A program made the position numbers and the translations under genes. Under the pieces are notes generated by a model that was not told the origin of the DNA, searched no databases, and saw nothing but the letters and a program-made list of their open reading frames with translations. From Polychytrium aggregatum (Eukaryota; Chytridiomycota; Chytridiomycetes; Polychytriales), in the NCBI RefSeq assembly GCF_025602895.1, contig NW_026516220.1, positions 310,001 through 374,000 on the forward strand: a stretch of 64,000 bases of DNA, given 5' to 3'. Below, one piece after another: positions 7,211-54,860 of this stretch; within the stretch, counting starts at the first letter, position 1, and each line of letters starts with the position of its first letter.

Positions 7211-10200
7211 TGATCTTTCCCGTTACTTGACACCAAGTGACTACTCCCCTGACTCTTCGGTTCGCGAATCAAGGAACCGGGCTCCATGTTCGGCAAGTTA
7301 TCCGACAGAGTGTTGTGTCGGATGTTCATGATGATAGCCCATCAGTCCAAGGAAAGGACGACGATGTCGACTAAACTCTCATGATTCCAAGGAAGGTTGC
7401 GCACAGAGAGGTTGTCGACAAAACCTTTCCTGACCAGCGAAGCGGGTATAATGGGCGCAGAGGAGTTGATTATGGAGACCGATGTTGTGGGCTTTCCGTC
7501 GGATGATCCTCCAAAATATTGGTTTTTGTGAACGCCATATATGAAGGGTTTCGGAAAGCGGCGTGACACCACTGAGTCGAAGCTGATACTCAGACAGGCA
7601 CATCAATAGATTTTGATACCACTGCCTTGCCATCACGAGGCTGGCGAGTGAGTCGTGGAACTGGAAAGCTGCGATATCGGAATCGGTCTGGTGGCAGTCA
7701 TTGCAAGGATTGCAAGGATTGTCCGCACCGCTGTTTAGTGGTTGCATGTGGCCAAGCCGGATCGAGTTCTGTCCCGTCATGGGGTCGCTCCGATGTCTGC
7801 TTTGCTGCAGCAATCCGATCCTGTGCCTGCCAGGCTGTGAGATGGCATCGATTCAGCAGGATCCCGCTGCCTTCGTTTGGGCCTGGACCACGTTTCAGCA
7901 GCCGAAATGTCGTGGTGGACAGGACATGGCATCGCCATCGCAGACCAGCATCCACTCCTGTTCGCCACGACGACCATACCGCCATACCGCCATATCGCCA
8001 TGCCATGCCGACCCGCACGCTGCACCGATGGCACCGTCCATCTCGGCCACCGACCCTGCCACCGACCCTGCCACCGACCCTGGCACCTGCCGCCCGTGTG
8101 GCGGCGGGCTTGTTCCTTTGACATCCCCGACCAACCACACGGCTGTTGTCGCGTGTGGCGCATGGTGCCGTTGTCTCGTCGCCCCTTGCCATGTTTGCTC
8201 GGTCCTGTCCTGCTGCTGGCTGCGAGCCGAGACTGCCGCCAGAGCTCGCCCCGGGAGCAAGCAGGGCTTATTCTGAGGCGACAGGCACCAAGCACCGACG
8301 CTCATCGAAGGCTGTGGCTCTCGGAGCCTGTGGTTGCAGTTGCGACTGTGAACTCCAGTGCTGTCTGTCGGTGGTGGAAGCGAGCAGTGCCGATGCTCCA
8401 GCCGTGGAGTGGGTCTTGAGATGCGTCCAGCAGGACGGGCAGTCGAAAGGGCAGCCGAGAGGACAGTCGCCGTGAGGGAGACCGAGTGTCCAGAGCAGTC
8501 GTGAGGGAGCCAGGTGCTGAGAACGAGGCTTACCCTTGAATATGGCGGATCGTGCTCGGCCAAGAGACAAGTGAGTATCGACACTCCAAGGTCCACGCGG
8601 ATAGAGAACTGCTCGCAACCAGGACTGGGCGGGTGTTGACGGGATGTTTGTAGTTGCTGATCGACATTGGACAGCCAACAGGTTGCTCGCTGCATGGCCG
8701 ACAGGTTGTTGACTGTCCCAGCTGCCAGCCCGACCGGTGCCTGGTTGCATCGGCGTCTGCGCCGACGTTCGCTCCTCCAGCAGTCATCGGACGGATCTGC
8801 ATCCACATCGCCGACGATTCTGTATCTTTGGATGGTCGGTCTGTCGCTGCAGCGAGTCGATATGACCACTGCTCCGTCGGTCGTGCTTGCGCTGCTGGCT
8901 GCTGGCTGCTGGCTGCTGTTGGCCTGTTGATCAGCCAGACTCGTTGGTGCGGTCCATCTCTCCGATGCGTCCATCTCTTCGATGCGATTCGTCTCGCCCG
9001 TCTCGCCCGTTTCATCTGTCGTGTCTGTTCCGCTCTCCAGAGATGCCGTCCGCCTGGGAAGCTGTCTCCGTCGCCTGATGTCTGGCCCACATCCCTGCTT
9101 TGTCGACAGTGGCTTTCTCCAGGTCTCGTCGCCACCAGTGCCGCATCGACGTCACCATCAGCGTCGCCGCTGGATGGATTGCCTCCGAGTCCTGACTTCA
9201 TCGTCCCAGAACGCTCAGAGGGCGAGCAGGTCGACCCGACTGCCCTGGGTGCTTGGCGACACTGAAGATGCCTCCAGGCTGTGGCGACGGTGCTGTCCTG
9301 CGATGGTGTCGATGTCCTTCCACATCCAGAGCAGATGCTCCAAGCGGCAACTTGCCTCCGCTCTCGGTCGGTTCGTTGCCTGTGCCGACTTGTCACTGCC
9401 GATCCTCCATCGACATTGATCCATCGATTGTACCCATCGGTCGCTCTGGTTGTCGGTGGTCCGATCCATTCGCTCGGTCGATCCGTCTGCTCGTCCTGTT
9501 GATCCGTCTGCTCGTCCTGTTGATTGCCGTCTCCGTGAACAGGCTTGGCTGTTGTCGACGATCCACCGACCCAGCAGACACCCGGCCACCGCTCTTGCTC
9601 AGAACCCGTCCCGTCCCTGCACAACCGCCCTGTCGAATACAAACCCGCATCGACAGGCCGCTGATGGCCGTTCACGGACTCGCGGGTGTCGTCGATGATC
9701 GACCGCCGTTGAGGAACGAGGTGGGTGTTTATTGACCAGCACACTGGGCCTGTCCAAGCCGTGTCCGGGACTGCTTGGATCGTCCGAGGTCGTGGGTTGT
9801 CAGGGCCCGTGGATTGGCGAGCCTGTGGATTGGCAATCCGACTGCTCGCCCGGCGACGATCGGCTGGTTCCAAGCAGTGACCGTCGAGCCAGAGTGGCTT
9901 GTGCAGTCGACGAGCGACATCCGACAACAGACAATGTGCGATCCGCGATTGACGACGGCCGATCGATCAGGTGAGCGAGACAGAGGAGCAGGTCGGGATG
10001 GTTGGGTGCGAGTTGTGTCGTTGGGTTGGGACCGAGGCCGGGTGCAGGAGTTGCCGGTGATTGTCGGCCTGGCGATGATGCGAACAGAGACAGAGGTGGA
10101 TGCGACGTCGCGGCCAGGGTGATCGGATGGCCGAGCTGTTTGCACGGATGGGTTGCAGTGGAGGATGTGGTTGCGACGGCGGATGTGGTTGCGACGGCCG

Positions 10201-20002: not shown

Positions 20003-20641
20003 GGTGGACGGTGGCTAAGGGGAGCTTCAAAGTCGAGGCGATGCCGGGCCAAGGCGTGTTCACGAGGACTGGATGGAGCAAGCAAGACCAAACGGAGTGT
20101 CAGAGTCGAAAACACACCAAGCTGCAGCGAGGCCGTGGCGGGCGAGGCGAGGCGAGGCGAGGCGACAACGCACCGACAAGCGGGTGGATCGGCTTCGAGA
20201 GGACCCCGAGATCGGCTTGGAGACGATGGACGAGCACGCAGCAAACTCTTGGCCAGATCGTACTATCAATTTTTTCCGGCCCCCTCGCGGCTGCTCATCT
20301 CGGTCACCTGAAAGTCACGTTGTATGTGGCGCAGCAAAAGTTGGAATCCGGCCGTGGTCGGTTGACGGCATTTGGTATCACCTTGAGCCGATTGACAGTG
20401 GTGGTGGGCGATTGGTGTGGAGGAATGACCAATTGTATCATTGTTGGAAGCTCCACTCCGATTGCGGACAAGAACCACCACCATCTGAATCTCTCTGGTT
20501 GGAAACCTAGTCAAGCGTGGCTGTGTGTCAGCGAGATGACATGATCGTTTGGCTATCGGGCAAGACTCACCTTGACAAGATGTCTTCCCACGACTGATTG
20601 AGCGAGCGATGCGTTTCTGGATCTGAATCAAGGACGCCACT
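20003..20641. other. upstream of COQ9 and of the truncated Fanzor; no gene
   Basis: GC-rich, with a GGCGA pentamer run at 20142-20165. It is probably the COQ9 promoter region plus the eroded left side of the upstream Fanzor element. No terminal inverted repeat matching the right end was found here. Confidence 0.4.
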
Positions 20642-21508
20642 GTGAGCATCACTCCCTGCCCAAAATGCGCTGGTTTTGAGGAGATTCTTTCTTCCCCAAG
20701 GGCAGAACCAGCCATCGTCGCTATTTTCTCGCCAGATGGCTCCCCTCAAGCGAAAGACACCAGCCAGGCGACCAAGTGGATCCAGAGCACCCACAAGATC
20801 CTTGGTCTGCAGCAATGGATGAGCACCACACCGAGCCCCAAGATCCCTGGGTTGGATCCCTTCCTGCAATACATTCGCCATGGGTTCGATGGAGACATGC
20901 TGGACAAACAGCTGTACTTCAGCCTGACCCGGCGTCGGCGATTCAAGCGACTCGATCTCCACAGCAAGCGACAGCGCACTGTTCACGAGATGTGCAAGCA
21001 GGTCATCGACCAGGCACCAAGGGAGACCGAAGTGGTGATTGCCTTTGGGAATGCCTCGTGGAAACAGGGGAAGGGATATGCATCCAGTCCCAGGAGACTC
21101 AGGTTCGCCAAGTACTTTGAGCAGTTCCACCATCACCAGAGACGACCACCAGACCGATCCGTCTCCAAGATCCATGTGTGCTCGGTGAACGAGTTCAACA
21201 CATCCCAGGTGTGCTCACATTGTCGGGAAGCCAAGCGACTCGAGCCACCCGAGTATCTTGATATCGAGAAACCCCACTTTGTCCGGAGCTGTGCAAGCTG
21301 CCATACGCTGTGGGATCGAGACATCAATGCAGCCAGGAATATGATCTCGGTATGCCAGTCGATCATCGCCACAGGAGATCGACCGGGTGTATTCAAGACT
21401 GTGCTTCCCAAACCAACAAAACCACTCGATTGCCAACGAAGACAGGAGTGCAATGCCATGGCTTGCTCACTGGGCCTACAAGTCAGTCAGCGGGCTTCAG
21501 ATATCTGA
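20642..21508 (+). pseudogene. 5'-truncated Fanzor (TnpB-like) nuclease, copy A
   Basis: The C-terminal half aligns with the full-length Fanzor at 22997-25369. Shared blocks include WMSTTPSPK, EVVIAFGNASWKQGKGYASS, SVNEFNTSQVCSHC and LWDRDINAARNM. The zinc-finger cysteines and the RuvC-III aspartate remain, but the RuvC-I block with its GIDPG aspartate and the whole N-terminal RNA-binding part are absent. Homology fades near 20740, so the frame before that is probably foreign sequence. The frame is open for 288 codons with no internal stop. Its right terminus (21523-21548) is intact. Without RuvC-I it should not cut DNA. It could be a recent truncation or a retained RNA-binding fragment. Confidence 0.8.
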
Positions 21509-21512
21509 AGCC
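21493..21512 (+). other. 20-base perfect palindrome near right end of copy A
   Basis: GGCTTCAGATATCTGAAGCC is a perfect inverted repeat 10 bases before the right terminal repeat of element A, overlapping the end of the truncated Fanzor frame. It sits where copies B and C carry the hairpin GCTTGACGCAAGC or its variant, so it is a candidate stem of a guide RNA. Confidence 0.6.
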
Positions 21513-21522
21513 AGAAAGTGAC

Positions 21523-21548
21523 TGTCCCGTTTCTTTCTGGATAGACTG
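21523..21548 (-). repeat. right terminal inverted repeat of element A
   Basis: 26 bases, flanked outside by TA (21549-21550). Read inward on the opposite strand it starts with CA and ends in AAACGGGACA, the same terminal pattern as both ends of element B. The left terminus of A was not found. Confidence 0.75.
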
Positions 21549-21550
21549 TA

Positions 21551-21832
21551 AGTATCTTGCACTGTTCCTTGAGTATGTCGACAGTGGGTGCCGGGTCGCC
21601 CATATTCTGGGCAGTCCACTTCGGGGTTGCCATCCCTCTTGGGATGGTCGATGGGAGGTGGTTAACTCCCTTGTGCAATGTGTGTGTGTGCTGATGTGTG
21701 TGTGTGCAAAGTGTGTGTGTGTGCCGGCGAGAGGCTTCTCGCCTTCCCTCGGGGGTCTCTCGCCAGAGACTGCTCTTCTCGCCGACCGAGGTGGCTCCGA
21801 GAGCGCGTTTTTTTCGTTCTCGCTCATGTTTT
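21551..21832. other. spacer between Fanzor elements A and B
   Basis: No gene. It contains a GT microsatellite (about 21676-21722) followed by two adjacent GC-rich dyads, GGCGAG..CTCGCC at 21726-21743 and GTCTCT..AGAGAC near 21755-21770. It ends with a T-rich run and TA at 21833-21834, immediately before the left end of element B. Confidence 0.6.
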
Positions 21833-21834
21833 TA

Positions 21835-21860
21835 CAGGCAATCCAATATAAAACGGGACA
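21835..21860 (+). repeat. left terminal inverted repeat of element B, with TATA box
   Basis: 26 bases after the TA at 21833. It contains CCAATATAAAACGGGACA; TATAAAA at 21847-21853 lies 66 bases before the transposase ATG. About 17 of 26 positions match the right repeat, with an identical 7-base core CGGGACA preceded by an A run. Confidence 0.8.
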
Positions 21861-21918
21861 CCCAGGTTTTTGACCATTCATCGAATATTTTGTTACCCAA
21901 TGTTATCGCGCGCTGGCC

Positions 21919-22725
21919 ATGACCATTCGCCACACATCCGACTTTCGCACCGCCGCATTGCGATGCTACGCCCTCATCCATAGCCTGCGTAAGGTCGCCT
22001 CCATATTCAGTGTATCCAAGAGCACCATCCATCGATGGCACCGAGGATGCAAGCTGGATGACCCATCCCGGGTCCCAGCTCGCAGATCCACTTTCTTCGA
22101 GCAGGCATGTCCAGTCATTCGCACCCTGATTGAACAGGACCCGTTCCAGACTGGTCCTGTGCTGCGGTGCAAGCTCGAGTCCATCCTCCAGAGGAAAGTA
22201 TCACTCTCACTCTGCCACACTGCCATCCACCGAGCAGGTCTCTCTCACAAGAGGGCAACACACCTCTACAAGTCCAAGCGACTGGATGAGCGAGTGGCAC
22301 AGTTCAGGGACCAGGCCCGCTCCATTGACCCACGACGATTCGTTTTTGTCGATGAGACAGGGATCAGGAGATCCATTTTCCCTCTTTACGGATACTCGCC
22401 GAAGGGTGCTCCTCTTCGCCAGCGCAATCACATGAAACACAAGTCTGTCTCGGCTGCATTTGCAATCAACCACTCTGGTGTGCTGCATCGCATGTACATC
22501 CCCACATCATTCAAGACACACTCTATGGTCGAGTTCTTTGAGCGAGCGAGCTTCCCAGACGACTCTGTGATTGTGATGGACAATGTCAGCATGCACAAGA
22601 CAATGGCTGTCCTGGACTGCATCGAGCGCCGAGGATGGTCAGTGATCTTCACCCCACCTGCCTCGCCCGACTTCAATCCCATCGAGAACTTCTTTGGGGT
22701 TGAGTCCCCACCGATTTGGGGTTGA
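21919..22725 (+). CDS. Tc1/mariner-type DD34E transposase, C-terminally truncated
   Basis: Cut-and-paste transposase of the IS630/Tc1/mariner group. Residues 1-100 form the helix-turn-helix DNA-binding region (RKVASIFSVSKSTIHRWHRG is the first HTH). The catalytic triad is Asp145 (FVDETGIRR), Asp221 (VIVMDNVSMH) and Glu256 (SPDFNPIENFF), with 34 residues between the last two. The family normally continues some 40-60 residues past the glutamate. Here the frame runs into VESPPIWG and stops within a set of 21-bp repeats, so the C-terminus is lost or replaced. Activity is doubtful despite the intact triad. The ATG lies 59 bases inside the left terminal repeat. Confidence 0.88.
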   Translation: MTIRHTSDFRTAALRCYALIHSLRKVASIFSVSKSTIHRWHRGCKLDDPSRVPARRSTFFEQACPVIRTLIEQDPFQTGPVLRCKLESILQRKVSLSLCHTAIHRAGLSHKRATHLYKSKRLDERVAQFRDQARSIDPRRFVFVDETGIRRSIFPLYGYSPKGAPLRQRNHMKHKSVSAAFAINHSGVLHRMYIPTSFKTHSMVEFFERASFPDDSVIVMDNVSMHKTMAVLDCIERRGWSVIFTPPASPDFNPIENFFGVESPPIWG

Positions 22726-22756
22726 GTTCCTCCAATTTGGAGTTGAGCTCCCCAAT
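22696..22756 (+). repeat. three imperfect ~21-bp repeats at the transposase/Fanzor junction
   Basis: Units start GGGGTTGAGTCCCC, GGGGTTGAGTTCC and GGAGTTGAGCTCCCC. Each has an internal dyad (GGGG..CCCC or GGAG..CTCC). They overlap the premature end of the transposase frame and precede the Fanzor TATA box by about 105 bases. They may be regulatory sites or a recombination scar. Confidence 0.75.
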
Positions 22757-22860
22757 CACGCCGCCATTCTCACGCTCAAATCCCTGGCTTGAACCTCTCG
22801 GCGATTTTTGAACAGGTCGCTTCCCCAACCAGCCCGCGCAGTCGGGTTCCTGCTCTCGGG

Positions 22861-22866
22861 TATAAA
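22861..22866 (+). promoter_or_regulatory. TATA box of the Fanzor gene
   Basis: TATAAA preceded by CGGG, 131 bases upstream of the likely Fanzor ATG at 22997. Its position argues that the in-frame ATG at 22808 is upstream of transcription and not the start. Confidence 0.5.
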
Positions 22867-22996
22867 TGCCACACCTTCGTCCTGCTGCTTTCTTCCCTCA
22901 TCTCGCCTTGATCGGATCATCGCGCTATTGTACGATAAAAAAAAAGTCTCTGCTCTGACCAGTACCACTGGCAGGCATCCAGCATCCTCTGCCCCC

Positions 22997-25369
22997 ATGC
23001 CTCCGAAGCGTAAGGGTACCGGTGATGGCCAGCCTCGGCCACCCAGGCCCAAGAAAGCCAAGTCACAGTCGGAGCCTGTCTCTGGTTCGTATTCTGACCC
23101 CACGCATGCTTGGTCGTCTGTTGCTCCGTCGCTCACCACCACTGCTTCTGCAGATCCAATGGATGTCGATCCCACCGAGCCTGGTCCGTCTACTTCCTCG
23201 AGTACCGGCAAGCGATGTCGCCAGTGCGACGGTACCGATCACGAGCGAAGCAACACTAGCAAGTGTCCCAAATACCGGCCCCTCAAGAGTTCTGTCGTCC
23301 CACTCGTGGATGGAAGGTCATCCGCCCCTCAGTTCAGCTGCTTCAAGCAGACGATGGATGGCTGTTGTCTCAATCCCGCTCTCCGCGACAAGACCCAGGC
23401 CACCGTCGAGGCCATGACCCAGATCCAGTTCGAGGCATCCAGGCTGCTCAACCTGCACATCCTCCGGTGCATCGAGCAGGATATTCCCGTCCCCGTCATC
23501 TCCAAGTCCACACCTGTTTTCATCCGCCAATGCTTCAAGATCGTCCAGGCCGATGCCCTCTCGCCGACCGGGGACAATGAGAAATACAACGAGCATCTGG
23601 TCGCTTCCTTTCGCGACTACCAGACCACTCGGCACGCAGACCTGCCTCCGGCCCCTCGTCTGCCTGATGGTGCTCACAGTCAGCTTCTCACCCTGGCTGT
23701 CAATGCCTATGCCACCAACTGCACCACCCACCTCGACCTGGCCTACTGGCGACTCCTTCGCCGCTTCTGCGCTGCCGTCTTCCCAGCCAACAAGCATAAG
23801 CACGAAGCCATCGAGGCCTGTCTCGAGCTCTTCGAGAAACCAGGGCAGACTCCACCCAAGGCCGATCTCGAGTTCCTCTATCCCGAGTTTGGCCACGTCC
23901 TGGACGAGTTTCGGTACAGCAACGACCAGGACCGCTTCCGGGCCCTCCATCGCCTCTCACACCATGTGGGAATCCTCGCCCGAGACAAGATGGTCGACGA
24001 TGTCCACAAGTGGATCGACTGTGACATGCCCGCCCTCCGAGTCACCGAGCTGCAGCGCCAGGCCAAGCTGGACGAGCTCACTACCCAAGGCATTCCCTCC
24101 GACGACAAGAGGTTCACCACGGCCAAGTCTGAGCTCGGCACCACCAAGGCCAAGATCAACAAGCTGGCCGCCAGGATCAACTGGGCCCTCAAGCAGCTCG
24201 CTCTCGACACTCCTCCGTCCGTGTGCACGATGGTCCCTCTGTGCACAGCCAAGGCCAAGTATGTCAAGATCGACACCGTCACTCTCTGGGAACTCCTGGG
24301 TCCAAAGAAGCGCCTTGGACTCACCTGGGACATGCTCAAGGAAGAAGGCGAGGACGGTGTCAACAACCAGGATCGTCTCTGGCGCAGTTGCTTCAAGCTG
24401 CGTAGTTCCCTCTTCCGTGACCGGGATATCAATCACAAGCTGTTCAACTACGATATCAGCACCGATGGCATTGGATGCACCATCGGTCTCGTCAAGTTTC
24501 TGCCTCGAACCGATCACACCGAGACCATCGAGCCTCCTCCGACCGCCGAGCAGCGTATCCAGGCCCACATCGGCGACCCAGACCCCGATCGCACCACTTG
24601 GATTGGCATCGATCCTGGAGTCAGCTCCATCTTCACGGCGGTCATCCAAGCACCGGGCCACCAAGACGAGATGGTCTCGTTCTCCAATGGCCACTACCAG
24701 CACATGTGTGGCCATACGTCCGATACTGAGTGGCACAACACCATGAAGTATCGACTCGATATCGAGACCTGGATGTCGTCCACCCCCTCGCCCAAGGTGT
24801 CATCCTCGGAGGCTTTCAAGGTCCATCTCACCCATGTCCTGCGACCGGAGCTGCGAGTGCAGCTCGACTTCCACCTTGGCAAGAAGGCCCGTCACCATCG
24901 ATTCACGGGCCACAGGAGACGCCAAGTGGCCGTCGACAGGATGTGCAAGGCCGTCCTGAAGCACGCCCCGATACGGACCGATGTGGTGATCGCCTTTGGC
25001 AATGCGTCATGGCGACAAGGCAAGGGCTATGCATCCAGCCCTCGGAGGCAGCGGTTTGCTCAGTACTTTGAGCAATTCGAGCACCACCGCCGCCGTCCCA
25101 ATCACCATTATGGAAGCGTCAAGGTGGCCTCGACGAACGAGTTCAACACCTCGCAAGTGTGCTCCAAGTGCCTGGAGCCAGTTCGGTTGGAAGGACTCGA
25201 TGCGCCCAGTGTTGCGAATTCCCACTTTGTCAGGAGCTGCAAGAATCCCAGCTGCCGGACAGTGTGGAATCGCGACGTCAATGCGGCGCGCAACATGATC
25301 ATAGTGTGCAGGTCGATTGTGGAGATCGGAGAGCGACCGGCGGTCTTCACTCGGAGGCTGCCAAAGTGA
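22997..25369 (+). CDS. Fanzor RNA-guided endonuclease (eukaryotic TnpB homologue), apparently intact
   Basis: Fanzor proteins are eukaryotic OMEGA nucleases that cut DNA using a guide RNA made from the transposon 3' end. 790 aa, no intron, starting at MPPKRKG. This start is preferred over 22808 because it lies downstream of the TATA box. Residues 3-35 carry basic nuclear-localisation-like patches (PPKRK, RPKKAK). A CCHC-like knuckle (CRQCDGTDHERSNTSKC) is near 85-101. The middle is helical and basic. RuvC-I is GIDPG with Asp539. The block VVIAFGNASW at 663-672 stands where TnpB has its RuvC-II glutamate but lacks one; Glu715 (STNEFNTS), 46 residues on, fits the displaced glutamate described for Fanzors. 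The zinc ribbon is Cys722, 725, 748 and 753, and RuvC-III is NRDVNAARN with Asp760. All catalytic and zinc residues are present, so activity is plausible. Confidence 0.92.
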   Translation: MPPKRKGTGDGQPRPPRPKKAKSQSEPVSGSYSDPTHAWSSVAPSLTTTASADPMDVDPTEPGPSTSSSTGKRCRQCDGTDHERSNTSKCPKYRPLKSSVVPLVDGRSSAPQFSCFKQTMDGCCLNPALRDKTQATVEAMTQIQFEASRLLNLHILRCIEQDIPVPVISKSTPVFIRQCFKIVQADALSPTGDNEKYNEHLVASFRDYQTTRHADLPPAPRLPDGAHSQLLTLAVNAYATNCTTHLDLAYWRLLRRFCAAVFPANKHKHEAIEACLELFEKPGQTPPKADLEFLYPEFGHVLDEFRYSNDQDRFRALHRLSHHVGILARDKMVDDVHKWIDCDMPALRVTELQRQAKLDELTTQGIPSDDKRFTTAKSELGTTKAKINKLAARINWALKQLALDTPPSVCTMVPLCTAKAKYVKIDTVTLWELLGPKKRLGLTWDMLKEEGEDGVNNQDRLWRSCFKLRSSLFRDRDINHKLFNYDISTDGIGCTIGLVKFLPRTDHTETIEPPPTAEQRIQAHIGDPDPDRTTWIGIDPGVSSIFTAVIQAPGHQDEMVSFSNGHYQHMCGHTSDTEWHNTMKYRLDIETWMSSTPSPKVSSSEAFKVHLTHVLRPELRVQLDFHLGKKARHHRFTGHRRRQVAVDRMCKAVLKHAPIRTDVVIAFGNASWRQGKGYASSPRRQRFAQYFEQFEHHRRRPNHHYGSVKVASTNEFNTSQVCSKCLEPVRLEGLDAPSVANSHFVRSCKNPSCRTVWNRDVNAARNMIIVCRSIVEIGERPAVFTRRLPK

Positions 25370-25467
25370 TCGGTTTTATTTCTTGTGGCTTTGCTTGACG
25401 CAAGCACAGCACATACTACCTGTTCATGGAAACGGCTATATTGTCCCGTTTTTTTCTGAATAAAGTG
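25370..25467 (+). ncRNA. candidate omega RNA (guide scaffold) at the Fanzor 3' end
   Basis: In TnpB/Fanzor systems the guide RNA scaffold is the transposon 3' end and the guide is the flanking DNA past the right terminus. The 98 bases from the Fanzor stop to the right terminus hold the perfect hairpin GCTTGACGCAAGC (25393-25405) and then the terminal repeat. The fossil copy at 41516-41718 preserves this stretch strongly, and its hairpin variant GCTTGACGCGAGC replaces a T-A pair with T-G, keeping the stem. Copy A has a different but perfect stem at the same place. The guide would begin at 25468. RNA ends and processing are inferred. Confidence 0.45.
25442..25467 (-). repeat. right terminal inverted repeat of element B, with AATAAA
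   Basis: 26 bases followed by TA at 25468. It begins TGTCCCGTTTTTTTCTG and contains AATAAA at 25460-25465, which can serve as the polyadenylation signal of the Fanzor transcript. Confidence 0.8.
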
Positions 25468-25921
25468 TAACAAGAAATTATTCATAGTGTCCAGGACACG
25501 AAAATCGAGCTTTGGAGAAACAGCGACGCGCAGTCAGCGGCCCCTTGCCTCTTCGCCTTCCCTCTTGCCTCTTTCGCCTTTCCTTCTGTGCTGTCTTTTC
25601 TCTTGGCCGGCTGGCACGTGTCGTCACACAGACCCACCTATCCGCGCACAAAGACCACTTCCGACAAGCGCCTGCACTGGATCCGCAACAAAGGTGCCCT
25701 TCAGCATCAAGCCATATTTTTTGCCTGAGCGTGGGGAGCCGCAAAGGGCCGGCCTCAATCCAGGTCTGGGACCGCCAACGCCCCGCTGTTCTCGCTCCTC
25801 TCTCCATCCGCTGCATTCACCCCCCGTCCGTCTGCTGTACTTGCCGGCCGACGACACCGAACGAACACCGAACGGACACCGAACGAACATCCGGCCGCAC
25901 AGCGACAGCATCCCCTTCGCC

Positions 25922-28492: not shown

Positions 28493-30971
28493 TTACAGCG
28501 CAGGCTTGCTAACGCGAGCGTGTGCTGCTTCCAAGATCATGCCCAAGACGTCCGTATAGCTCTTTCCTTCCAGTTTGCCCATGTAGGCAAACTTTCCATC
28601 CCAACACCATCCAGGGTTGGGATTAACCTCAAGAAGCTTGATCGTGCCCCTCCGTTTCTCGGCGCCATCGCTGCTCTCTGTATCTTCGGCGTCGTCAGCG
28701 TCGTCGTCGCCGCGACCGACATCGCATCTGAAATCGAAGCGAGCATAGTCGCGACAGCCGAACCGCTTCCACAAACGGATGCAATAATCCCTTAGCTTCT
28801 GCTTGGTTGCCTCTGAGAGGGTGGACTCTCGATATGAGATGTCTGTCCAATACGGGCTTGATGGGTCCCATTTCGATTCAAATCCTAGAATCGGCGGGAG
28901 GTTTTGACCAACGATCTTGGAGTAATCGACCTCCAGAATAGGGAAGAAGTGGAAGCCAGTGTCGAGATTTCCGACCATACCGACGCCATATTCGACACCA
29001 GCAAGGTACTCTTGTACAACGACGCTGTCGATGCCGAGGGACTCGAGTTCCTCGAGGTACGAGTCCACCTCGCCGGGCGACCGGACGATGGAGCGACTGG
29101 TGATTCCGAGAGAGTTGTCGCCTTTGGATGGCTTTATAAACGCCGGGTAGAGGATCTCTTTCTCGATGGCCTTGTGAAGCCGCTCAAGGCTGGTAGGGGT
29201 GTGGATGTCAAAGAAGAAGACCTCCTTGGGTGTGGGGACGCCGATTGCGTCTGCCGATCGGTTGACAAGCCCCTTGTCATAGCAGTACGAGAGGCAGTTG
29301 GGATCCGCCCCAGAGTACGTCAGACCCTGTATCTCTAGATAGGCTGGAACGTGGAGTTCCTTGGTGGCGTCGTTGTTGAATCCCTCGTCACAGAGGTTGA
29401 AAACGAAATGGTCTCGTCGGGAGGCCAGGAATTGCTCCATGGTGCCGTGAGACTCGAGCACACACATGGAGTCGTCTTCATAGCCAAGGGCTTTGAGCGC
29501 GTCCGTGAGCTTCTTCCGAGTTTCGATATCCTCGGGGTTCCAACTGTTGTTGAGCTTGCCAAAGCAGGGCTGAGAAGGGTCGCCCATCAGGACCACCATC
29601 TTTGAGAAGAGAGGCTTGCGGGGAAGTGCAGAGATATCCTGGATCGGCACAGCCGCCGTTGCTGAGGCACTGGCTGCCGGATCCTCCTCAGCATCGCTGA
29701 GAGTAGTGGTTGTATCTTCGCTGTCGGAGAAGCTGGTGGCGGAGACGGTGGAAGATCCAATCTTGACCCGCTTCACTCCATGAATCAAAAGTCGCTGTCC
29801 CATCATGCCCGAGTCTTCGTGGCGTTGGCTTAGGTTGTTTGCGATGCTGTGCAGTGCCGGAGCTGCGTTATCTCCGTCGATGGTAAAGCCCTCGGTCTTC
29901 AGGAGGGTCTCGATCTCTGCTTGGCTGTAGAGGCGTTCTTGATAGAACTGGTCGCGGATGACGCCTTTATGGACGTCGGTCACGACTTCGCGGCAGCAGA
30001 GACGGGTGCGGTCCTTGCTCAATTGCCGCTCGCGACAAACGAGCATCGAGTCGTCGATCCACTCCCAGCTGCGCTCGTCAAAGTTGGAGCGCCAGTACTC
30101 GCCATCGGTTACGTCGATGAGGAGCCGTCCTCCAGGTTTCAGAACGCGAAAGACCTCGGCCAGCACCATGCGGTCGGCGCTGTCGTGACTAAAGTAGCCG
30201 AACGAGTTGCCCATCAGCAGAACCAAATCAAAGTGCTGGTCGTCGTACGGGATTTGCCGCGAGTCGCCGACGGTGAAAGCCGTGCGGTGCTCCACGCCCT
30301 GTGCGGTAGATCGCTCATTGGCCAGGGAGATCAAGTATGCCGACTGATCGTGGCCACAGATTTCGAGGTGCGGATAGCTTGCCGCCAGCTGCAGCGAGTG
30401 ACGGCCTTGGCCACAGCACAGGTCAAGGATGCGCGTGCAGGATCCTGAAAGATGCGATTCGACAAGGGCAACGAGGGGGCGAGGAGCGAGAATATGCGTG
30501 AGTTACATATCGGAACAGCTGTTTAGCAGTAATATAGGGCCAGTGGTGGATGCTGCATATATGCCACACGAACGCCATACCTGCTTTGGCGGCGCTGTGG
30601 GAGCCTTGCTCAAGGATAGCACGGATTCCGGCAATATCCTTGATCATCTCAAGCTCCTCGGCAGTGATGGCAGGATCCTCGACGACGTCGCCGTCGGTCT
30701 TGAGGTACATTGAATCGCTGAACAGGGTCCTCCACCACTGGGCGGGGACCATGGCCTCCATATCTGCGACCCTGCCATGGCAGATACTGTGGGGCTTCAA
30801 GTCCTTCTTGGCTTCATCCCGAGCCGCGGGCAAAGCCGCTTCAGCGAGCAGCTGGGCGGTAGGGACCTTGGGGCTCTTGGGTCCAGCCGTGCAAGTGAGA
30901 TGCTGCCCGGGCTTTGGTGTGGCGGCTAAAGAGAGGTCTTGGGCGACATCAGGAGGGGTACTGCGAACCAT
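28493..30971 (-). CDS. methyltransferase fused to a D-Ala-D-Ala-ligase-like ATP-grasp domain
   Basis: Two exons on the - strand (30971-30581, 30444-28493) encode 780 aa. The N-terminal part is a class I SAM-dependent methyltransferase: motif I ILDLCCGQGRHS (136-147) is completed by splicing, followed by the acidic post-I strand, DLVLLMGNSFGYFS and VLKPGGRLLIDV. An acidic linker (SDSEDTTTTLSDAEED) follows. The C-terminal ~390 residues are ATP-grasp of the D-Ala-D-Ala ligase type: MVVLMGD, FNLCDEGF, YSGADPNCLSYCYDKGLVNR, PAFIKPSKGDNSLGI, VVVQEYLAGVEYGVG and the Mg-binding LLEVNPNPGW. Such a fusion suggests methylation and ATP-dependent ligation of one substrate, perhaps a small peptide or amino-acid product. 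The product is unknown. It runs convergently towards the CorA gene, 253 bases away. Confidence 0.85.
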
Positions 30972-42142: not shown

Positions 42143-45100
42143 TTAGGCAAACAGCAGGTCGCCCGGATTCGAGAACTTCATCCAAAAGTTGACAACAACG
42201 GCTGAAAACAGGACCAGGACCAGGACGGTTGGGCCCCAGCGATCGTCGAAGGGGCGAGGATCTGGTTGAGGGGGACCGGAGCAGTCGGACGGGTCAGTAC
42301 AGCCGCTGCACCGAGGGAGAGGGGAAGTTTGGCTGCGAGAGACATGATCGGCTTACCTCTCTCGCGAATGCGGTGGACACGCCATTGATACAGATAGAGG
42401 GAATAGCCCATAAACAGCATCGCAATCACGGTGAAGATCAGGCCCGTCAGCTGGCCAATCCGGTCGCCAAAGTTCAGCAGCGACAGCGCCATACCACCGA
42501 GGACCATGGTGACTGGCATGCAACAGCCAAAGTGGGAGCAAAGGAAGGAGATCGAGAGCGCAGTAAAAGACACAGAATTAGCACAGCAGTCGCCTTTTTG
42601 GACTGATGGCGTACTGCCCAAAGACACCGGCCTTGCAGGATTATACAGATACGTACAGTTGAGCCACGACAGGAACGTGCGTTCATTCGCAAAGAAGACC
42701 TTGGGCTCGACGCGAACGGGAACGGCGATGCGCTTCTGCAGGTTCTCCTTGAGGCGCTCGGGGATGACCACGGGCGGGCTTGGGGGCTGCTGGTGGTGGC
42801 TCTTGAAGGTCTCGGCGAGGGTAGCCCAGCTCGTGCGCTTCTTCAGCGAGCCCGAGCCCGAACCAGTGCTCGAGTTACCGAGGAGGGGGGTGCTCTCGTT
42901 AGGGTCATCGACAACAATCTCGATCGCATCCGGCGAGGCCGAGCGGCTCTTGGTGGGCGACGGCGGCTTGGTGGTGATCGAGGAGCGCGAGCCGATAAGG
43001 CTGCGGTGATGATCGAGCACCGTCGGCGATCGGTAGTTGGACGGCTCGGGCTTGAGAATGTTGTCCATCTGGGGCAGCCAGAAGGGCAGGAGCGGGACGC
43101 GGTTCTCAAAAACACTCGCGGCACCATGGACAAACTTGGAAAAGTTCGAGACTTCCTGGACCTGACCATCGATAGCAGCAATGGAGCAGACAGCGGCAGA
43201 TGAGTCGACGACTTATCGCACAGGGAATCGTGTCGGGGATCGTGCTTCCATCTTGCATTCTTTCCCTGGGAGGGGAGTGTAACCACCCACACGGAAACCT
43301 ACCAAGTGGCTCGAGACAAGCTCCTCAACCCAGCTGGGGGCCTGGGCACCGAGATGAGTCTGGGTCTTGACTTCCAGAATGGCATAGGGGAAGCTGTAGA
43401 CATCCTCGGGGAACTGGGTGAGGAACTCCGAAGCGGACGAGGCGTCGGTTCGGCGCCAGTGGTCGCCAGAGCGGGTCTTGCCCGTGTTGTCCTCACGGAC
43501 AACAACCAGATCGGTATCGAGAGAAATGCGCACGCCAGAGTCCCCGGGCAGCTGGAAGGCCACACGGTTGTAAATAGTGCGAATCACGGGGTGGACCTTC
43601 TTTTCGACAATCGAGGCCTGGATCTCAGAGGCCAGCGTTTCCAGGTCCTTGATCTCCTGCTCCGACTTGGACTTGCGCTCGCGCAGCTTCTGAATCTGTC
43701 TCTCCATGACATTTTCGCCACGGAGGTAAGCGTCCAGGTACTTTTCCTTGATCTGGAAGCGTCGCTTGACACTCGACTCGCCCGAGTAGTCGTCCTTGTG
43801 CACCTTTTGCTCGACGTAGATTTCCTGGTCAGAGTTACCGTACCAGCGGAATCGGATGGCCTATCGATGGGTTGATGTGTGTGTGGGGAGAGCCGGGATC
43901 AGAAACAGCTGTTAACCAGAGTGGTCGTTCACACGGTGACAATACCACAGGCAACCTGATACAGCGCCAGCACAGCTACAGCACATACCTCAGCGTTGTT
44001 GCGGCTCTCCATGCGGCCAAGATACAGATCAAAGGACTCATTGTCGAGGTACACGGACGAGACCGAGGGCTGTGCGGCCTGGCCCTTGTTCTGGATGACG
44101 AGGACGGGCAGATACTTGAGGATGATGCACTTGACCTCGGTGACGTTGGCAATGTGGACCCAGTACTTCTTGGTGGTGCGCACAAAGCTCTGGGCCGGGG
44201 TGGTGTCGATGCCCAGCGCCTGAGACTTGACGCCACGGTTGCGGACGACGTCAAAGATCTTGGAGAGGCGGATGATCAGATCGTCGTTGTTTTCCTTGAA
44301 GAAGGGGCGGGAAGTGAGCCGGACCATAAACATGGGCTTGAGCATATACGCAGTGTGCTTGTCATGCTTCTTGAGGATCTGCGGGGCGGAGGGGTCCGAG
44401 AGTGAGTCGGTTTGTCCAGTTCAAAGGTTCAAAGATCTTGCGGCGACTCGATGTCCCATATTGCTACGCAGAGACACCATTCGATGGTGATCACAGTCAC
44501 TGGCGATGGGCGGTGCACCCCCGGTAACGTCACGAGGCAACGCCACGAGGCATACTGGAGTGAGATACAGCTGCCGAGATACGCACCTTCAAGAAGCCAG
44601 TGTAGTTGAGGCGGATAAACTTTGAGAGCTCGCTGAGCTCGTTGGCGATGCGGGTGGTTTCTTCGTCGAGGCGGGTGAAGCGCTCTTCATCGGGATCTTC
44701 GGTGGCCAGGATCGACTTGACAACCGTCTCGCAGTGCTCGATGCGTCGCTTGAGCTCGTCGCCCTTGATGTCACGGAAGGCAGAGACCTGTGGACAGAGT
44801 GACGTCGGCAATTCGACAGCGATTGTTAGGAGACGGCCCCGCGACAGTATCGGAGAGAATTGAAACAGAATTGTAGGGTGCGATCACGATTCCCTCACAA
44901 CAACAGCGCTGGTCGGGCGGGTTATGAAGAGGGTGGCGGTTGCGACGGAAGAGTGTGTCGATCCGACGCGGCAGAATAACGACATAGCGGGGAGACGGAG
45001 ACGGAGAGCAGACCATGCGGTGACGGCATACGACAAATAGATCGATTGCCCAGGAAAGCAAGAGACAGACGGCAGACTGACGCAGAATCCACAGACCTTT

Positions 45101-45573
45101 TCAAGCTCACGCTCCATGAACTCGACAAAAGCAGCCTCATCTTGGTCGTTGAACGGCGTGGCAGGGCCGTCGACTCGGGTCTTGAGCTGACGCTTCAGCG
45201 AATCATAGTCGCTGAGATCGTAGAGCAGGATCGGAAGGGCAGTCAGGACAAGAGCGAGACGACGAGAAGGCGACCCAGGACGAGACGATTCGAAGACAAA
45301 CAGCCCGAGGATGCTATACGAATACTGGGGTTGGGCCAAGAAGCACACCGTTGGGGCGACAGAGGGCAGGACGCCAGAGGAGCGGCTCAGGAGCGACCGT
45401 CGAGACGTGTGGATGCTGCTGCCGGTGTCGGCGCGGCTCATCGTTATCGGCCCCGATCGGTGACTCCTCCTCCAACAGCCACCATGCTGGGACTTGCCCG
45501 GAAGGCAGACTTACAGGTAGTAGAAGCGCCACTCGGGGAAAATAGACTGGGAGAGCTGGGAGCCAAACTTCAT
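42143..45573 (-). CDS. VTC4: VTC4-like polyphosphate polymerase (SPX + VTC catalytic + membrane domain)
   Basis: Catalytic VTC subunit that polymerises ATP gamma-phosphate into polyphosphate at the vacuole membrane, gated by inositol pyrophosphate binding to SPX. Eight exons on the - strand (45573-45515, 45211-45097, 44787-44587, 44378-43989, 43860-43303, 43155-42657, 42512-42357, 42261-42143) give 698 aa, with all phases consistent. SPX domain 1-~150: MKFGSQLSQSIFPEWRFYYL and LKRQLKTR. Tunnel-fold domain ~170-480: KKYWVHIANVTEVK, the arginine pair AIRFRWYG (Arg258, Arg260), EQKVHKDDYSGE with Lys274, and the metal-binding YAILEVKTQ. A Ser/Pro linker leads to [18 protein letters not shown] and three membrane helices. 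The active-site residues favour VTC4 over non-catalytic VTC2/3, but assignment within the family is inference. Confidence 0.9.
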
Positions 45574-47353
45574 GTTTGCGGGTGCAAGGCGGGTGCAAAA
45601 AGCGGGAGCGGAACGGGGTTTGCGAGGCGAGGGTGCTTGGATGTGGGGGGGGGGCTGGAGAATGCCGAGGCTGGATCAGATCAGTGGCGGCAGAGACGAG
45701 GCTTGGGGCTCGCTGGGAGGTCTGGGCGCGGAGAGGATGTTTGCAGCGAGGGGATCAGGATGCGACGCAACCAGGACAGGCCGACGGAGACGAAGCGGTG
45801 CAAGAAGAGAATAGTCGTCTGGAGGAACACGGCAAGCTCCTGCGGAGGAGGAAAAAAGAAAAATAGGACAGGCCGCGGGACGAAGGAACGTGGGTCGGCG
45901 TGGGGGCTAAATAGCCAGGCAAACTCTCTTTCGCGCTGGGATGGGAGCGCTTGCAATCCCAAGCCGGAGCAAGAGCCCAGCAGCAGCAGCAGAGAAGCGG
46001 CGAGAAGGGCGAGGCGCACGCGGCGCTGCGATTGGCCCGCTCTGGCGCTCAAGGAGCCAAGACAAGCGGGGGAGAGAAGAGAGAAGAAAACAAGTTTCGG
46101 ATGTGCAATCGCTGCATCACAAAACTACTTTGGAATCAATTTCGGGGCGGACAGAGAGGGCGGCCGCACGCCACGCCGCTTTGTCGGCGGACGCGGAGTC
46201 GGCTCTGTGTGGTGCGTGTGGCGCGGGTGGGGCGTGTCCTGCTGGGCCGGACGCCGCTGGTTGGCTGGCGCTGGCACAAGCCGGGCAACAAGCTGGGCAA
46301 CAAGCTGGGCAACAAGCGGACAGCGGGTGCGTGCGCACACGCGCACGAGACACGCGGCGATTGGCTGGCGGCGGGACGCGTGCATGCGGGTGCTGCGCAT
46401 GTCTAGGGCTGGGGCTCGGCGAGGGGAGGGGCTCTGCGCGCAGCAGCTGCGCATCTCGCGCAACCCACACGACAATGGCGAGCGCGCCGCGTGCACGGAC
46501 TGCGCCGGGGTGCGGTGTCACATGTGTGCAGGCGCGTGCGTGGGCCGGGTGCCGTTGTCGAGTGCTGCTGTTGAGTGCTGCTGTCGAGTGTCATGGCGCC
46601 GTTGTCATTGGGCCAACACGCCAAACAGCGCGCGGCCACACAAGCAACAGCTGTGTCGCCAGCACGCCCCCCCCGTCGCACCGAGCGTGCCACCACCCCG
46701 CAAGCCTTTCGCCCACTGTCGCTGTGCCGCCCCTGTCCCGGCTGCTGCGGCCCCACTCAGATTGGATCTCCGGCCTTCCTCCGTTCGCAATCCACGCTCC
46801 TATCACTTCCGTCCCATCCCGCCCATCTCCTCGCCTTCCGACCACACCCGCTGCCCATCCGCAGACTTCCGAATCATTCCCGCAACACCGGTCTGGCCCT
46901 TCGCCGCATCTTGTTGTGGCAGCCGCCCGTCGACCCGCCGTCCTTTTCTCGCTGCAACCAACCCGCCCTTGGCTCTGTTAGCCCGCTCCACAAGCACCAA
47001 CAATCACTGTCGGCCATTTCTTTTCGTCCGAGCCCACTGCTCAACAAACAATCCCCGGCCATCGTCCATCTCTCGCCTATCACCCGCATTGTCTCTTGCT
47101 CCTGCTGTTCAGCCAGTGCCGCTCCCGGTAATGCTTTGAACCCACAGCCTTCTGGCTTGCTTCCCCACAGCTGCCCCAGATCCGACCATCGTGCTGTCCG
47201 CCTGCCTTCCGCATCACAGAGCCGGGCTCTCATTCAGCTCCCGCTGTTCTCCTTCTGTCTTGGACACGCCCGCTCATTCGTCATTCATACTTCATCGTCG
47301 TGGTTAGCCCAAACCCCCCACCTCTTCTCCAGCCCAGCAGCACATCGAGTCGA
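45574..47353. other. intergenic region between divergent VTC4-like and GATA genes
   Basis: Should contain both promoters. A 697-codon open frame on + (45046-47139) crosses it but overlaps VTC4 exons antisense and is compositionally biased (Arg, Ala, Gly, Ser), so it is not called. Short tandem GGCAACAAGCT units occur at 46283-46320. C+T-rich stretches lie from 46660 to 47350, upstream of the GATA gene. Confidence 0.4.
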
Positions 47354-51898: not shown

Positions 51899-54860
51899 AT
51901 GTCTCAAAAACGCACCCTCAGCTGTGATCTCACATACAGCAGTCCCGCCAAGATCGCCCGCCTCGATACGAGTCTACATGCTGTCGCCGAGACCGGTCCA
52001 TCCAGCAACACCCATTCCGGCCATCCCAGCCACGTTTGTGCCTTACTCGCCTCCCACGACATCCTCACGATCTTGATCTGCAACGATGCCTTTGTCGCAA
52101 CCATCGGCATCGCGACTCTGGCTCTCCTTCCCGGCCTGGCGCCACAGTACAAGGACATCCTCTTGCTCGTTTCCGAAGATGGGAGGCTCCGTGTTGTTCA
52201 GTCTCACATCGATGGCAGGGCATCTATTCCCAACTCCAAGAGAGCCAACTTCCGCGATGTTCTTAACAGGACCAAGGAATTCATCGATGCCAACGACTTC
52301 CTCCAGGGAGTTTTCTTCTTCCTCACACGCAGGAACGGATATCCAGCGAAGTTTGAGACATATCAGAAGGAACTGCCTCTCTGGTGGGCTTTCGCCAATT
52401 CAAGGTCGCTTCGGTGCATCATCAGCCACGAGTGGTGTGGTTTAGGTCTTCGGTATCCATTCACATTCAGTAATGACCCGAGCATATTTAGTGATGTTCA
52501 TTCTATGTTCATTCTATATCATCCGTTCACTAAATCCACGAGATCAATTCAAAATACTGGACAGTTCACTTTTGTTGAACACAGAATATGCCCGCCGCTG
52601 CAGCCCAGAATATTGGTATTGTCGAACCGAAAGAACTGTGAACATTGTCCGATTCGATCATCACCCATATCACACCGACGAACAAGTGTCCAAGCTTCTC
52701 CCACACGAAGTGTATATTCTGCAAGATGCGAATCATCACCTACGCATCAGGTTGGTCAACTGTGGGGTCTCTGTGTTTTCTGACTGGCCAGAGATCCCTC
52801 GCCGCATCAGAACTCTCATCATTGATGACTCGCCGAACAGAGTCACGGACTTTGCTAGCTTCTCCGAGATGCAGCAACTCGATTACCTGAGGATTCGGTG
52901 CAACATTGTCACTCTCGAAGGAATGCCGAATACCTTGCCGAACTTGACTCGTCTCGATTTATCCGAGTGTGCGAACATCCAGAGCCTCAACGGACTCTCC
53001 CAGATACCAAGTATACTTGAAGTGAGCCTCCCTCCACTCATCGAGAACATCGAACCTCTCTATCAATACTTTGGCCAGCTTGAGATGTTGGATCTGAGCC
53101 GCTGCAGTCGAATCACATCTCTTGTTGGGTTTCCTCCGTTGCGAAAATTGAATGAGCTCAGACTTCCAAGATCCATCCAGGCTCTGGATGGATTTCCGAG
53201 CCAACTGGACTCGCTCATGGAACTGGATATATGGACATGCGATCGACTCGAGTCGCTCAAGCGATTGACGCCGATGCCGGGATTGAAGAACATCTGGCTT
53301 CCTCAATCGATCTGTCTGAAGAATGCTGTTGATATCATTCATTGGTTCCAACGATCGCCCCAATGGAGGAGTTGTTCTGTGAAGGATCGATCGCACAATG
53401 TCCGTCTAGCATTCAATCAATTCTGGACATTGCTGAGCCTGGTATTCATCGATGCATTATCGGAGGCGAACCTATCAAACCAGTGCCTCAATGTACTCAT
53501 GGAGGAACCAAGCGAGCTACTAAATCGCTTCATGAGGACATCAGGGGTCGAGAACTTTAATGAACTAATATGTGACACTCGCATGGCAAGAGACATGTCA
53601 GCAGAATCGAATATTCAGTTGCTTAGCGTCGATCGAGGCAGAACATACATCGGATGCTACGCTCTGGATTATGACTCCATGCTGTCTGTGCTGGAGATTC
53701 CCACAGGGCTGGTGAACTGGAAATCTCCCTTGACAAAAGTCACAGTCCACCCTCAATCTTCTGAAAGTAGTCATCGTGATATCGACTATGTACTGCGCAT
53801 CGACCAAACGGCAGAAACGATGGTCTGGAGGGATAGTAAAGTTGAGTGTCTTGTGGGAATGCCACCAAGATTCGATTATCTAAAGCACTTGGAGATCGGC
53901 TGGAATAGTCTCAAGTCTCTCAGAGGCATGCCCGAGATGCATTTACTCGAAAAGCTCACTCTCTGGGCAGATGTTGAGGATCTTCAAGGACTACCGCCAG
54001 TGCTTCCGTCCCTCATGCATTTGGATATAAGTGATTGCGCTCGACTAAGGTCGCTCAAGGGAATGCCCGAGATGCCCAAATTGACAACATTGATACTGCC
54101 TCCACTGATACGGAGCCTGCAAGGACTGCCCAGGATCCTCTACTCGCTTCAAAGCATTGATCTCTCAAGCTGTTCTGAGCTTGCGTCGCTCAAGGAGATT
54201 CCTTATCTCCCAAACTTGAGAAAACTAACAACTCCCGAGGGACTGAAGACCTTGGACATACCCCTGAATCACATCAGCTCGCTTGAAGAGCTCGATATGT
54301 CGCGCTCGTCAAGTCTCGAGTCACTTGATCGCTTTCCATACACACCCAAATTGAAGATTCTGTATCTGAATGGTTCATTTTGCAACCTCCGTGGACTGCC
54401 AAGATGCATGCCGTCGCTTCAGATCCTCTCTGCCTGGTGCACCTCGCTCACATCGCTGGAGGGGTTTCCTGAAACACCCAAACTTGAAGAGCTGGCTCTG
54501 ACGTCCTCAATAACCAGCATGCGCGGTCTGCCGTCCGTATTTCCCACCTTAACGGTGTTTGCCGTTTGTGATCAAGGGAGTCCACCAAACAAAACAAGCC
54601 TCCAGGAATGCCACATCATGCCCAATCTTCAGCGTCTCAAGCTCTCTGGATCGATCCGATCATTCCGGGGGCTCCCTGAGTCCTTGATGAGGCTCCTGGA
54701 ACCGGATCTATCTTCATGCTCCAATCTGCAATCGATCGAAGGACTCCCACGTATGCCTCTGCTCCAGAGGTTGAGACGCGGTGGCATGCGGAAGTCAATA
54801 TTCGATGAGTTAGTGGCCCGACTGAGGACTGATTCACCGCAACTGAGCGTATCTGGATGA
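51899..54860 (+). CDS. large leucine-rich-repeat protein
   Basis: About 955 aa if an intron of about 94 nt (52491-52584) is removed; without it the frame shifts between 52480 and 52590. Residues 1-~200 are a domain I do not recognise (ILTILICNDAFVATIGIATLALL; VLNRTKEFIDANDFLQGVFFFL). From ~290 there are irregular leucine-rich repeats of about 23 residues (LPNLTRLDLSECANIQSLNG, LEMLDLSRCSRITSLVGFP). A non-repeat insert follows (~530-670), then a second array with SLRGMPEMHLLEKLTLWADV and LKGMPEMPKLTTLILPPLIR. There is no signal peptide or kinase. The region is less GC-rich than its neighbours, which could point to a distinct origin. Likely a protein-interaction scaffold. An alternative donor lies near 52437. 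Confidence 0.75.

Follow-up and report, generated by a model that had tools for sequence, protein, structure and literature searches.

A high-copy Tc1/mariner family carrying a predicted Fanzor1 nuclease gene in Polychytrium aggregatum and the pattern of its insertion sites

Results

A high-copy Tc1/mariner family with a Fanzor1 gene

The analyzed stretch of the Polychytrium aggregatum genome, 64,000 nucleotides in length (contig C90, NW_026516220.1 of assembly GCF_025602895.1, positions 310001-374000; hereafter the window), contains a 3,633-bp unit at window positions 21835-25467. This unit belongs to a high-copy Tc1/mariner (DD34E) family, of which it is a single insertion; the family carries a Fanzor1 nuclease gene, and the pattern of its insertion sites suggests, without proving it, that the Fanzor helps the family to keep and refill its sites. 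The reading that we favor, which in our judgment stands an even chance of being correct, is that in this bounded mariner element RNA-guided cutting would retain and refill the insertion sites.

The element starts with CAGGC, ends with GTG and has TA on each side (21833-21834 and 25468-25469); the flanking TA had been read from the letters alone in an earlier note on this DNA. Repeat detection paired its inverted ends over 32 nt with 72% complementarity (pair I1). The 26-bp terminal repeats, which the earlier note had called matched, are indeed inverted but imperfect, agreeing at 18 of 26 positions around the common core AAAACGGGACA. The TA duplication, the terminal inverted repeats and a DD34E transposase place the element in the Tc1/mariner group (IS630-Tc1-mariner, DD34E). 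When the genome (64.7 Mb, 418 contigs) was searched with up to 3 mismatches, the commoner variant of the left 26-bp end gave 418 matches and the right end 342, while the reversed patterns used as controls gave 0 in both cases; both counts take in many sites found on two contigs. A DNA search with the window element scored 40 places, and in 28 of its rows the match, 94-100% identical, spans at least 3,575 of the 3,633 bases. These 40 copies, picked by their similarity to the window copy, were fetched; the right end was present in 40 of 40 and the left end in 39, L035 being without its first 58 bp. Other genomic copies ending at the same repeats, which the earlier note had anticipated, are thus abundant.

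Flanks were collected from the matches listed, that is, 100 of the 342 right-end matches (85 distinct flanks) and 100 of 444 left-end matches, the latter all without mismatch (82 distinct 12-base flanks). Among these, the right end is followed by TA in 84 of 85 distinct flanks and by TG in one. In L029, L034 and L038 the TA of the right flank looks like the left end of a second, related element, so that head-to-tail tandems result. A search for the ends of a further family hit 5 places and returned nothing usable.

The Fanzor and transposase genes

Judged by its catalytic layout and by profiles, the open reading frame (ORF) of 790 aa encodes a predicted Fanzor1-type RNA-guided nuclease. Its C-terminus matched PF07282 at 5.7e-9, above the cut-off, and the protein matched the guided_TnpB model at 1.5e-5, below the cut-off. 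Similarity to SpuFz1 was detected at the C-terminus only and was not significant (phmmer E 0.16; profile E 0.26); the stretches with E715 and D760 align with those holding E541 and D606 of SpuFz1 (numbering offset worked out by hand), residues whose roles are described in the cited part of PMC10432273. A DPG at 539 (RuvC) and a Glu at 715, six residues before a CxxC (ExxxxxxCxxC), correspond to the Fanzor layout in the relevant section of PMC10711439, namely a RuvC DPG and an alternative Glu six residues before the zinc finger; the DPG-to-Glu interval is 173 residues as against 120-160 in the pattern given there for related TnpBs. The Fanzor motif described in PMC3627910, D-X(125,275)-[TS][TS]XX-zinc finger-X(5,50)-RD, was also found, with 178 residues from D539 to TS, then QVCSKC...CKNPSC (the second half being CxxxxC), 5 residues and RD. 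The description of an apparently intact 790-aa Fanzor was therefore upheld, the ORF at 22997-25369 being open, and neither outcome that would have spoken against the earlier note was seen, since other copies do end at the repeats and the profiles put the C-terminus of the protein in TnpB/Fanzor. Genome-wide, at least 57 Fanzor matches at 94-100% identity were found, with no stop in 46 of the 57 scored. The Fanzor frame is open in 29 of 36 copies, a set comprising the 40 fetched copies minus four second members of same-site pairs. A search for viral relatives gave 96 pattern matches, none of which was confirmed.

The window transposase, of 268 aa instead of 310 aa, is truncated, so that "complete" in the earlier note is accurate where the ends and the Fanzor are concerned but wrong as regards the transposase. 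It ends NPIENFFG-VESPPIWG, 12 residues after the catalytic Glu compared with 54 in the full form, and the window copy's own transposase is probably inactive. The full 310-aa form was found in L046 and L048, one site on two contigs, with 34 residues from the second Asp to the Glu; the DD34E assignment is borne out by this spacing and by DDE_3 and IS630 matches. This one sampled site with an open 310-aa transposase is also among the few at which the left flank reads ATA rather than TTA and the right end reads TG. The transposase C-terminal piece was whole in five of 40 copies (L044-L048), partly present in L030, and found at 137 genomic places, for all of which family membership was not established. 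The idea that transposase-defective copies make up nearly the whole family was rejected on these grounds, the 40-copy sample being biased by similarity. The first 259 transposase codons keep frame in 21 of 36 copies, in-frame deletions being counted as kept. No match of the transposase was obtained in the PDB, and a PHROGs search gave weak transposase-type matches only.

In 31 window-type copies, approximate omega was 0.34 for shared variants and 0.55 for singletons in the Fanzor, and 0.28 and 0.72, respectively, in the transposase region. Constraint has thus acted on both genes.

The right end as a putative omega-RNA

In SpuFz1, according to the cited part of PMC10432273, the region corresponding to the right end serves as the scaffold of the omega-RNA, and 14-15 nt of flank serve as its guide. 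By analogy, the right end of the window element is a presumed scaffold of the Fanzor guide RNA, with the host flank 25470-25489 as presumed guide. Of five regions, the 3' untranslated region (3'UTR) with the right end diverges least (mean pairwise p 0.022 vs 0.033-0.051), and the fold of 25340-25487, which includes the ORF end and some flank, beats all 200 shuffles (z -3.61). Two inner hairpins are kept in an alignment of 10 sequences, two of which are the window copy, and the second includes the last bases of the element. No pair covaries in this alignment, the copies being too alike.

Empty sites and the host repeat

The joined flanks of the window copy matched many genomic places across the junction. 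All eight fetched copies of the host repeat read ...TTA-ACAAG... with one TA and no element, in agreement with the single-TA empty sites anticipated by the earlier note; two of the eight, L050 and L051, share flanks and appear to represent a single site present on two contigs. A distinct repeat, family D, which has a Fanzor gene of its own, serves as host. From the empty-site and family D comparison, 20262-25489 is therefore a family D copy that has suffered a deletion and holds the mariner element within its tail. We also considered that the T before the left TA is supplied by the element; 8/8 uninserted host-repeat copies already hold it, although seven of them have a run of T at this place. 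Since family D matches took most of the 40 scored places in the joined-flank query, the remaining 19 sites were little tested; at one of them, L010, a 308-bp derivative (L057) was found on C246.

CACTA (EnSpm) elements are recognized by CACTA...TAGTG ends and a 3-bp target duplication. Family D, with at least 135 genomic matches, has CACTATC...CATAGTG as its ends, and 7 of its 11 distinct insertions show a matching 3-bp duplication; it looks CACTA (EnSpm)-like. Its Fanzor1-type gene encodes 855-862 aa and is 42% identical to the window Fanzor (L064, L065, L066). A family D transposase was not found, there being no other ORF of at least 200 aa on the gene strand in three copies. The carriers named in the cited part of PMC3627910 do not include CACTA, and a search of the open-licence literature gave no paper pairing Fanzor with CACTA and one work mentioning Fanzor and EnSpm. 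Inside family D, a mariner right end and a remnant of a transposase C-terminus were read by eye. The last ~100 bp of family D are almost constant in 12 copies (L064, L066 and odd-numbered L067-L085; two with a ~20-bp deletion), whereas the three whole copies are 6-8% apart. This terminal stretch shows a moderate fold as DNA (z -2.42) and is a candidate guide-RNA scaffold. Ends with the CAGTCTATCC repeat were found at 477 places, and most of the 100 matches listed lie within family D; because of this, and because left and right ends look alike, no clean left-flank test was obtained for this repeat.

A one-sided T before the left TA

Among the matches listed, 80 of 82 distinct left flanks have T before the left TA. 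The mirror arrangement, A after the right TA, is present in 13 of 85 distinct right flanks (Fisher 1e-30). As background, 278 of the 2282 TA steps in the window (12%) have a T before them. One base further out from the TA, an A/T-rich position is seen on both sides (63/82 left, 55/85 right), as expected of a symmetric transposase; a one-sided base bias, in contrast, should not result from a symmetric DDE transposase dimer. Five deletion derivatives of 308, 308, 380, 381 and 1110 bp, which retain both ends (L057, L059-L062), likewise have TTA. The one-sided T resembles the target-adjacent motif (TAM) of a Fanzor. Since it parallels SpuFz1, in which CA is conserved before the left repeat, also in derivatives, and the TAM is CATA (cited part of PMC10432273), we predict NTTA as the TAM of the window Fanzor.

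These data bear on the possibility, which we regard with some doubt, that the Fanzor is an ordinary passenger. It would then be cargo, the left T a target preference of the transposase and the mosaicism of the copies described below the result of ordinary gap repair after excision. Derivatives of 308, 380, 381 and 1110 bp with both ends are what abortive gap repair leaves, the A/T-rich base on both sides indicates some transposase preference, and constraint is found in both genes. However, the T bias is one-sided, which this explanation does not lead one to expect, and the related family B shows this T in no more than 7 of its 15 usable distinct flanks (40 listed places sorted by hand with non-TA dropped; one TTG and one flank read from L038 counted as T), although family B is old and may or may not have a Fanzor of its own.

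Same-site copies and shuffled variation

We compared copies occupying the same site on two contigs, pairs that are probably allelic to judge by their shared flanks. In four full pairs the flanks (~500 bp each side) were 99.8-100% identical, with 0 to 2 mismatches per ~1 kb. The elements differed at 107/3501 positions in L027/L043, 107/3638 in L022/L026, 16/3635 (0.4%) in L021/L023 and 40/3743 in L046/L048, and both bases were present in at least two other copies for 78/107, 78/107, 14/16 and 28/40 of these differences, respectively. Seven further pairs, compared over 150 bp of flank and 650 bp of element, had 1 flank mismatch in 1050 in total and element mismatches of 5/650, 35/568, 32/631, 9/650, 12/650, 10/403 and 5/650, with indels in three. 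Across the full and partial pairs the elements thus differ by 0.4-6%. When copies at different sites were compared over this 650-bp stretch (21 comparisons), divergence was 1.9-7.3%. Three of the seven pairs fall well within that range, and four at or under its lower limit.

Of 13 sites queried, seven had a second occupied contig, as judged by flank spacing, and four of these (L018, L024, L045, L047) differ by at least 100 bp in length. No uninterrupted joined-flank match for the 13 sites was present among the best 40 of 332 candidates. The members of the pair L010/L057 are of different structural class, and the right flank of L041, the only one compared, recurs beside a 1.1-kb derivative on C135. 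At the L045 site, the second copy (C14:63211-95200) has ~32 kb between the flanks compared with 3.7 kb in L045, representing a large insertion or a join inside the element.

Linkage disequilibrium (LD) was calculated over 282 sites with a minor count of at least 4 in the 36 copies. Mean r2 was 0.319 below 20 bp, 0.066 at 20-50 bp, 0.055 at 50-100 bp, 0.034 at 100-200 bp and 0.028-0.031 beyond, against 0.029 after permutation. Likewise, deletion 108-349 was found in all four combinations both with deletion 654-787 and with the long C-terminus (L030 being scored as short class by a simple test). As LD between copies is down to background by ~200 bp and structural variants occur in all four combinations, the element copies therefore recombine with each other. 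A double-strand break followed by template-switching repair would give such mosaics, and transposase excision, Fanzor cutting or general conversion could supply the break.

An assembly or polishing artefact, in which one locus is present twice on contigs and repeats are patched from other copies, would produce false differences and false mosaicism; we consider this unlikely. The nearly identical flanks of the pairs and an LD scale shorter than a short read are in keeping with it. The differences, however, include structural classes of ~100 bp to several kb, structural variants are found in all four combinations, singletons, which should vanish on polishing to a common sequence, make up 302 of 785 variable sites, and the one-sided T is left unexplained. 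Assembly error is accordingly a serious competitor where the same-site result is concerned, a weaker one for the structural classes and none for the one-sided T. Family D was the only other repeat compared at the same site and carries a Fanzor, hence it is no clean control. Its first same-site pair had 1 flank difference and 3 element differences, the last of which falls on the terminal base of the compared stretch.

Other long ORFs of the window lie at 52473-54860 (+), 45046-47139 (+), 28493-30334 (-) and 8530-9927 (-). The features of the element and its host are collected in Table 1.

Table 1. Window coordinates of the mariner element, its genes and the surrounding host repeat
Feature	Position	Strand	Evidence
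Left part of deleted family D copy (CACTA-like, Fanzor-bearing; insertion target of the element)	20262..21834	+	Comparison with family D copies
TTA at left junction: left TA duplicate with T before it (predicted TAM NTTA)	21832..21834	+	T in 80/82 distinct left flanks among matches listed
Left terminal inverted repeat	21835..21860	+	18/26 vs right end; 418 genomic matches
DD34E transposase ORF, 268 aa, C-terminally truncated (full form 310 aa)	21919..22725	+	DDE_3 2.5e-21; IS630 1.1e-33
Short direct repeats (TTTGGGGTTGAG..., D1) at the gap where ~140 bp with the transposase C-terminus of long-type copies is missing	22693..22751	+	Comparison with long-type copies
Fanzor1-type ORF, 790 aa; D539 (DPG), E715 (NEFNTSQVCSKC), D760 (WNRD)	22997..25369	+	ORF list, profiles, motif and SpuFz1 alignment
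Putative omega-RNA scaffold: 3'UTR, right inverted repeat, TA	25370..25469	+	Low divergence, fold, kept hairpins
Right terminal inverted repeat	25442..25467	+	End comparison, genome search
Right TA duplicate	25468..25469	+	Sequence; empty-site comparison
Predicted guide segment (host flank), also final 20 bases of family D copy (...CATAGTG)	25470..25489	+	Guide: analogy with SpuFz1; family D end: copy comparison

Discussion

We read the one-sided T, the same-site copies and the shuffled variation as signs of RNA-guided retention and refilling of sites, in which the guide RNA, the TAM, the cutting itself and its causal role are inferred. The window copy would be mobilized by a 310-aa transposase from another copy. 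The Fanzor would bind an RNA with the conserved right end as scaffold and the flank past the right TA as guide, and would cut chromosomes with an uninterrupted site when TTA precedes the target. Repair would then copy the element back in, switching between family members. A further proposal, which we put forward as a tentative one and think rather improbable, is that insertions persist only beside the TAM (NTTA), that emptied alleles are cut and recopied, and that repair shuffles the hundreds of copies, so that the family would evolve as a recombining population and not as separate lineages.

Several observations weigh against retention and refilling by RNA-guided cutting. The first ten bases of the guide predicted for the window copy match the ends of family D, yet 0/8 fetched family D copies are filled there. 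L028 has an element-free counterpart on C10, so that unfilled alleles may exist, although this counterpart deviates in a local repeat and does not match an empty site exactly. An unusual asymmetric transposase could cause the T bias, and ordinary excision with gap repair, general ectopic conversion or assembly error could suffice for the mosaic copies. The members of L021/L023 are not strongly different, and two of the seven partial pairs are only 0.8% apart, under the range found between sites. In the second same-site pair of family D there is 1 flank difference against 10 element differences, of which 7 cluster within 37 bp. Finally, purifying selection is seen in both genes and so does not set the Fanzor apart.

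According to the cited part of PMC10432273, Fanzor has no known natural role. Because this one genome unites a transposase and a nuclease with a presumed guide RNA, empty sites and insertion ends in the hundreds, the retention model becomes testable: the predicted TAM (NTTA), the predicted scaffold (~100 nt) and the predicted guides can be spelled out copy by copy. Fanzor1 in mariner elements with a transposase was already known (PMC3627910, cited part), as were Fanzor1 TAMs including bases before the left end (PMC10432273; TAMs also PMC11423790, cited parts). In the accessible portions of the open-licence literature, neither a one-sided T at such a scale beside an encoded DDE transposase nor a recombining population of Fanzor-element copies was found.

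The closest comparison is with Spu-1/SpuFz1 of Spizellomyces punctatus (cited parts of PMC10432273 and PMC3627910). Both have a Fanzor1 ORF between inverted repeats with (in Spu-1 putative) TA duplications, a conserved RNA-like right end past the stop codon, many shorter derivatives without the ORF and fixed bases before the left TA (CA in Spu-1, T in the window family), and the catalytic Glu and RD can be aligned. Spu-1, however, is ~2.1 kb long with no transposase found between its ends as described there, whereas the window family encodes a DD34E transposase, full in some copies; SpuFz1 has 633 aa and the TAM CATA, the window Fanzor 790 aa and the predicted TAM NTTA, and the similarity between the two proteins is limited to the C-terminus, as noted above. 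GtFz1 is likewise a Fanzor1 with a TTA-containing TAM (TTAAN, PMC10432273), but the cited part of that work reports no inverted repeats or transposase at its locus. The Mariner-Fanzor elements PGv-1 and PUl-1 (Bao and Jurka, 2013; PMC3627910) combine a Mariner transposase, Fanzor1 and TA duplications, as does the window family; PGv-1 is described there as one of four related single-copy elements, while the hundreds of ends in the window family permit population tests. The model proposed here, RNA-guided cutting of the unoccupied site followed by copy-back, is that of TnpB of IS200/IS605 (cited part of PMC10432273), with the difference that the carrier here is a eukaryotic cut-and-paste DDE transposon known from its sequence.

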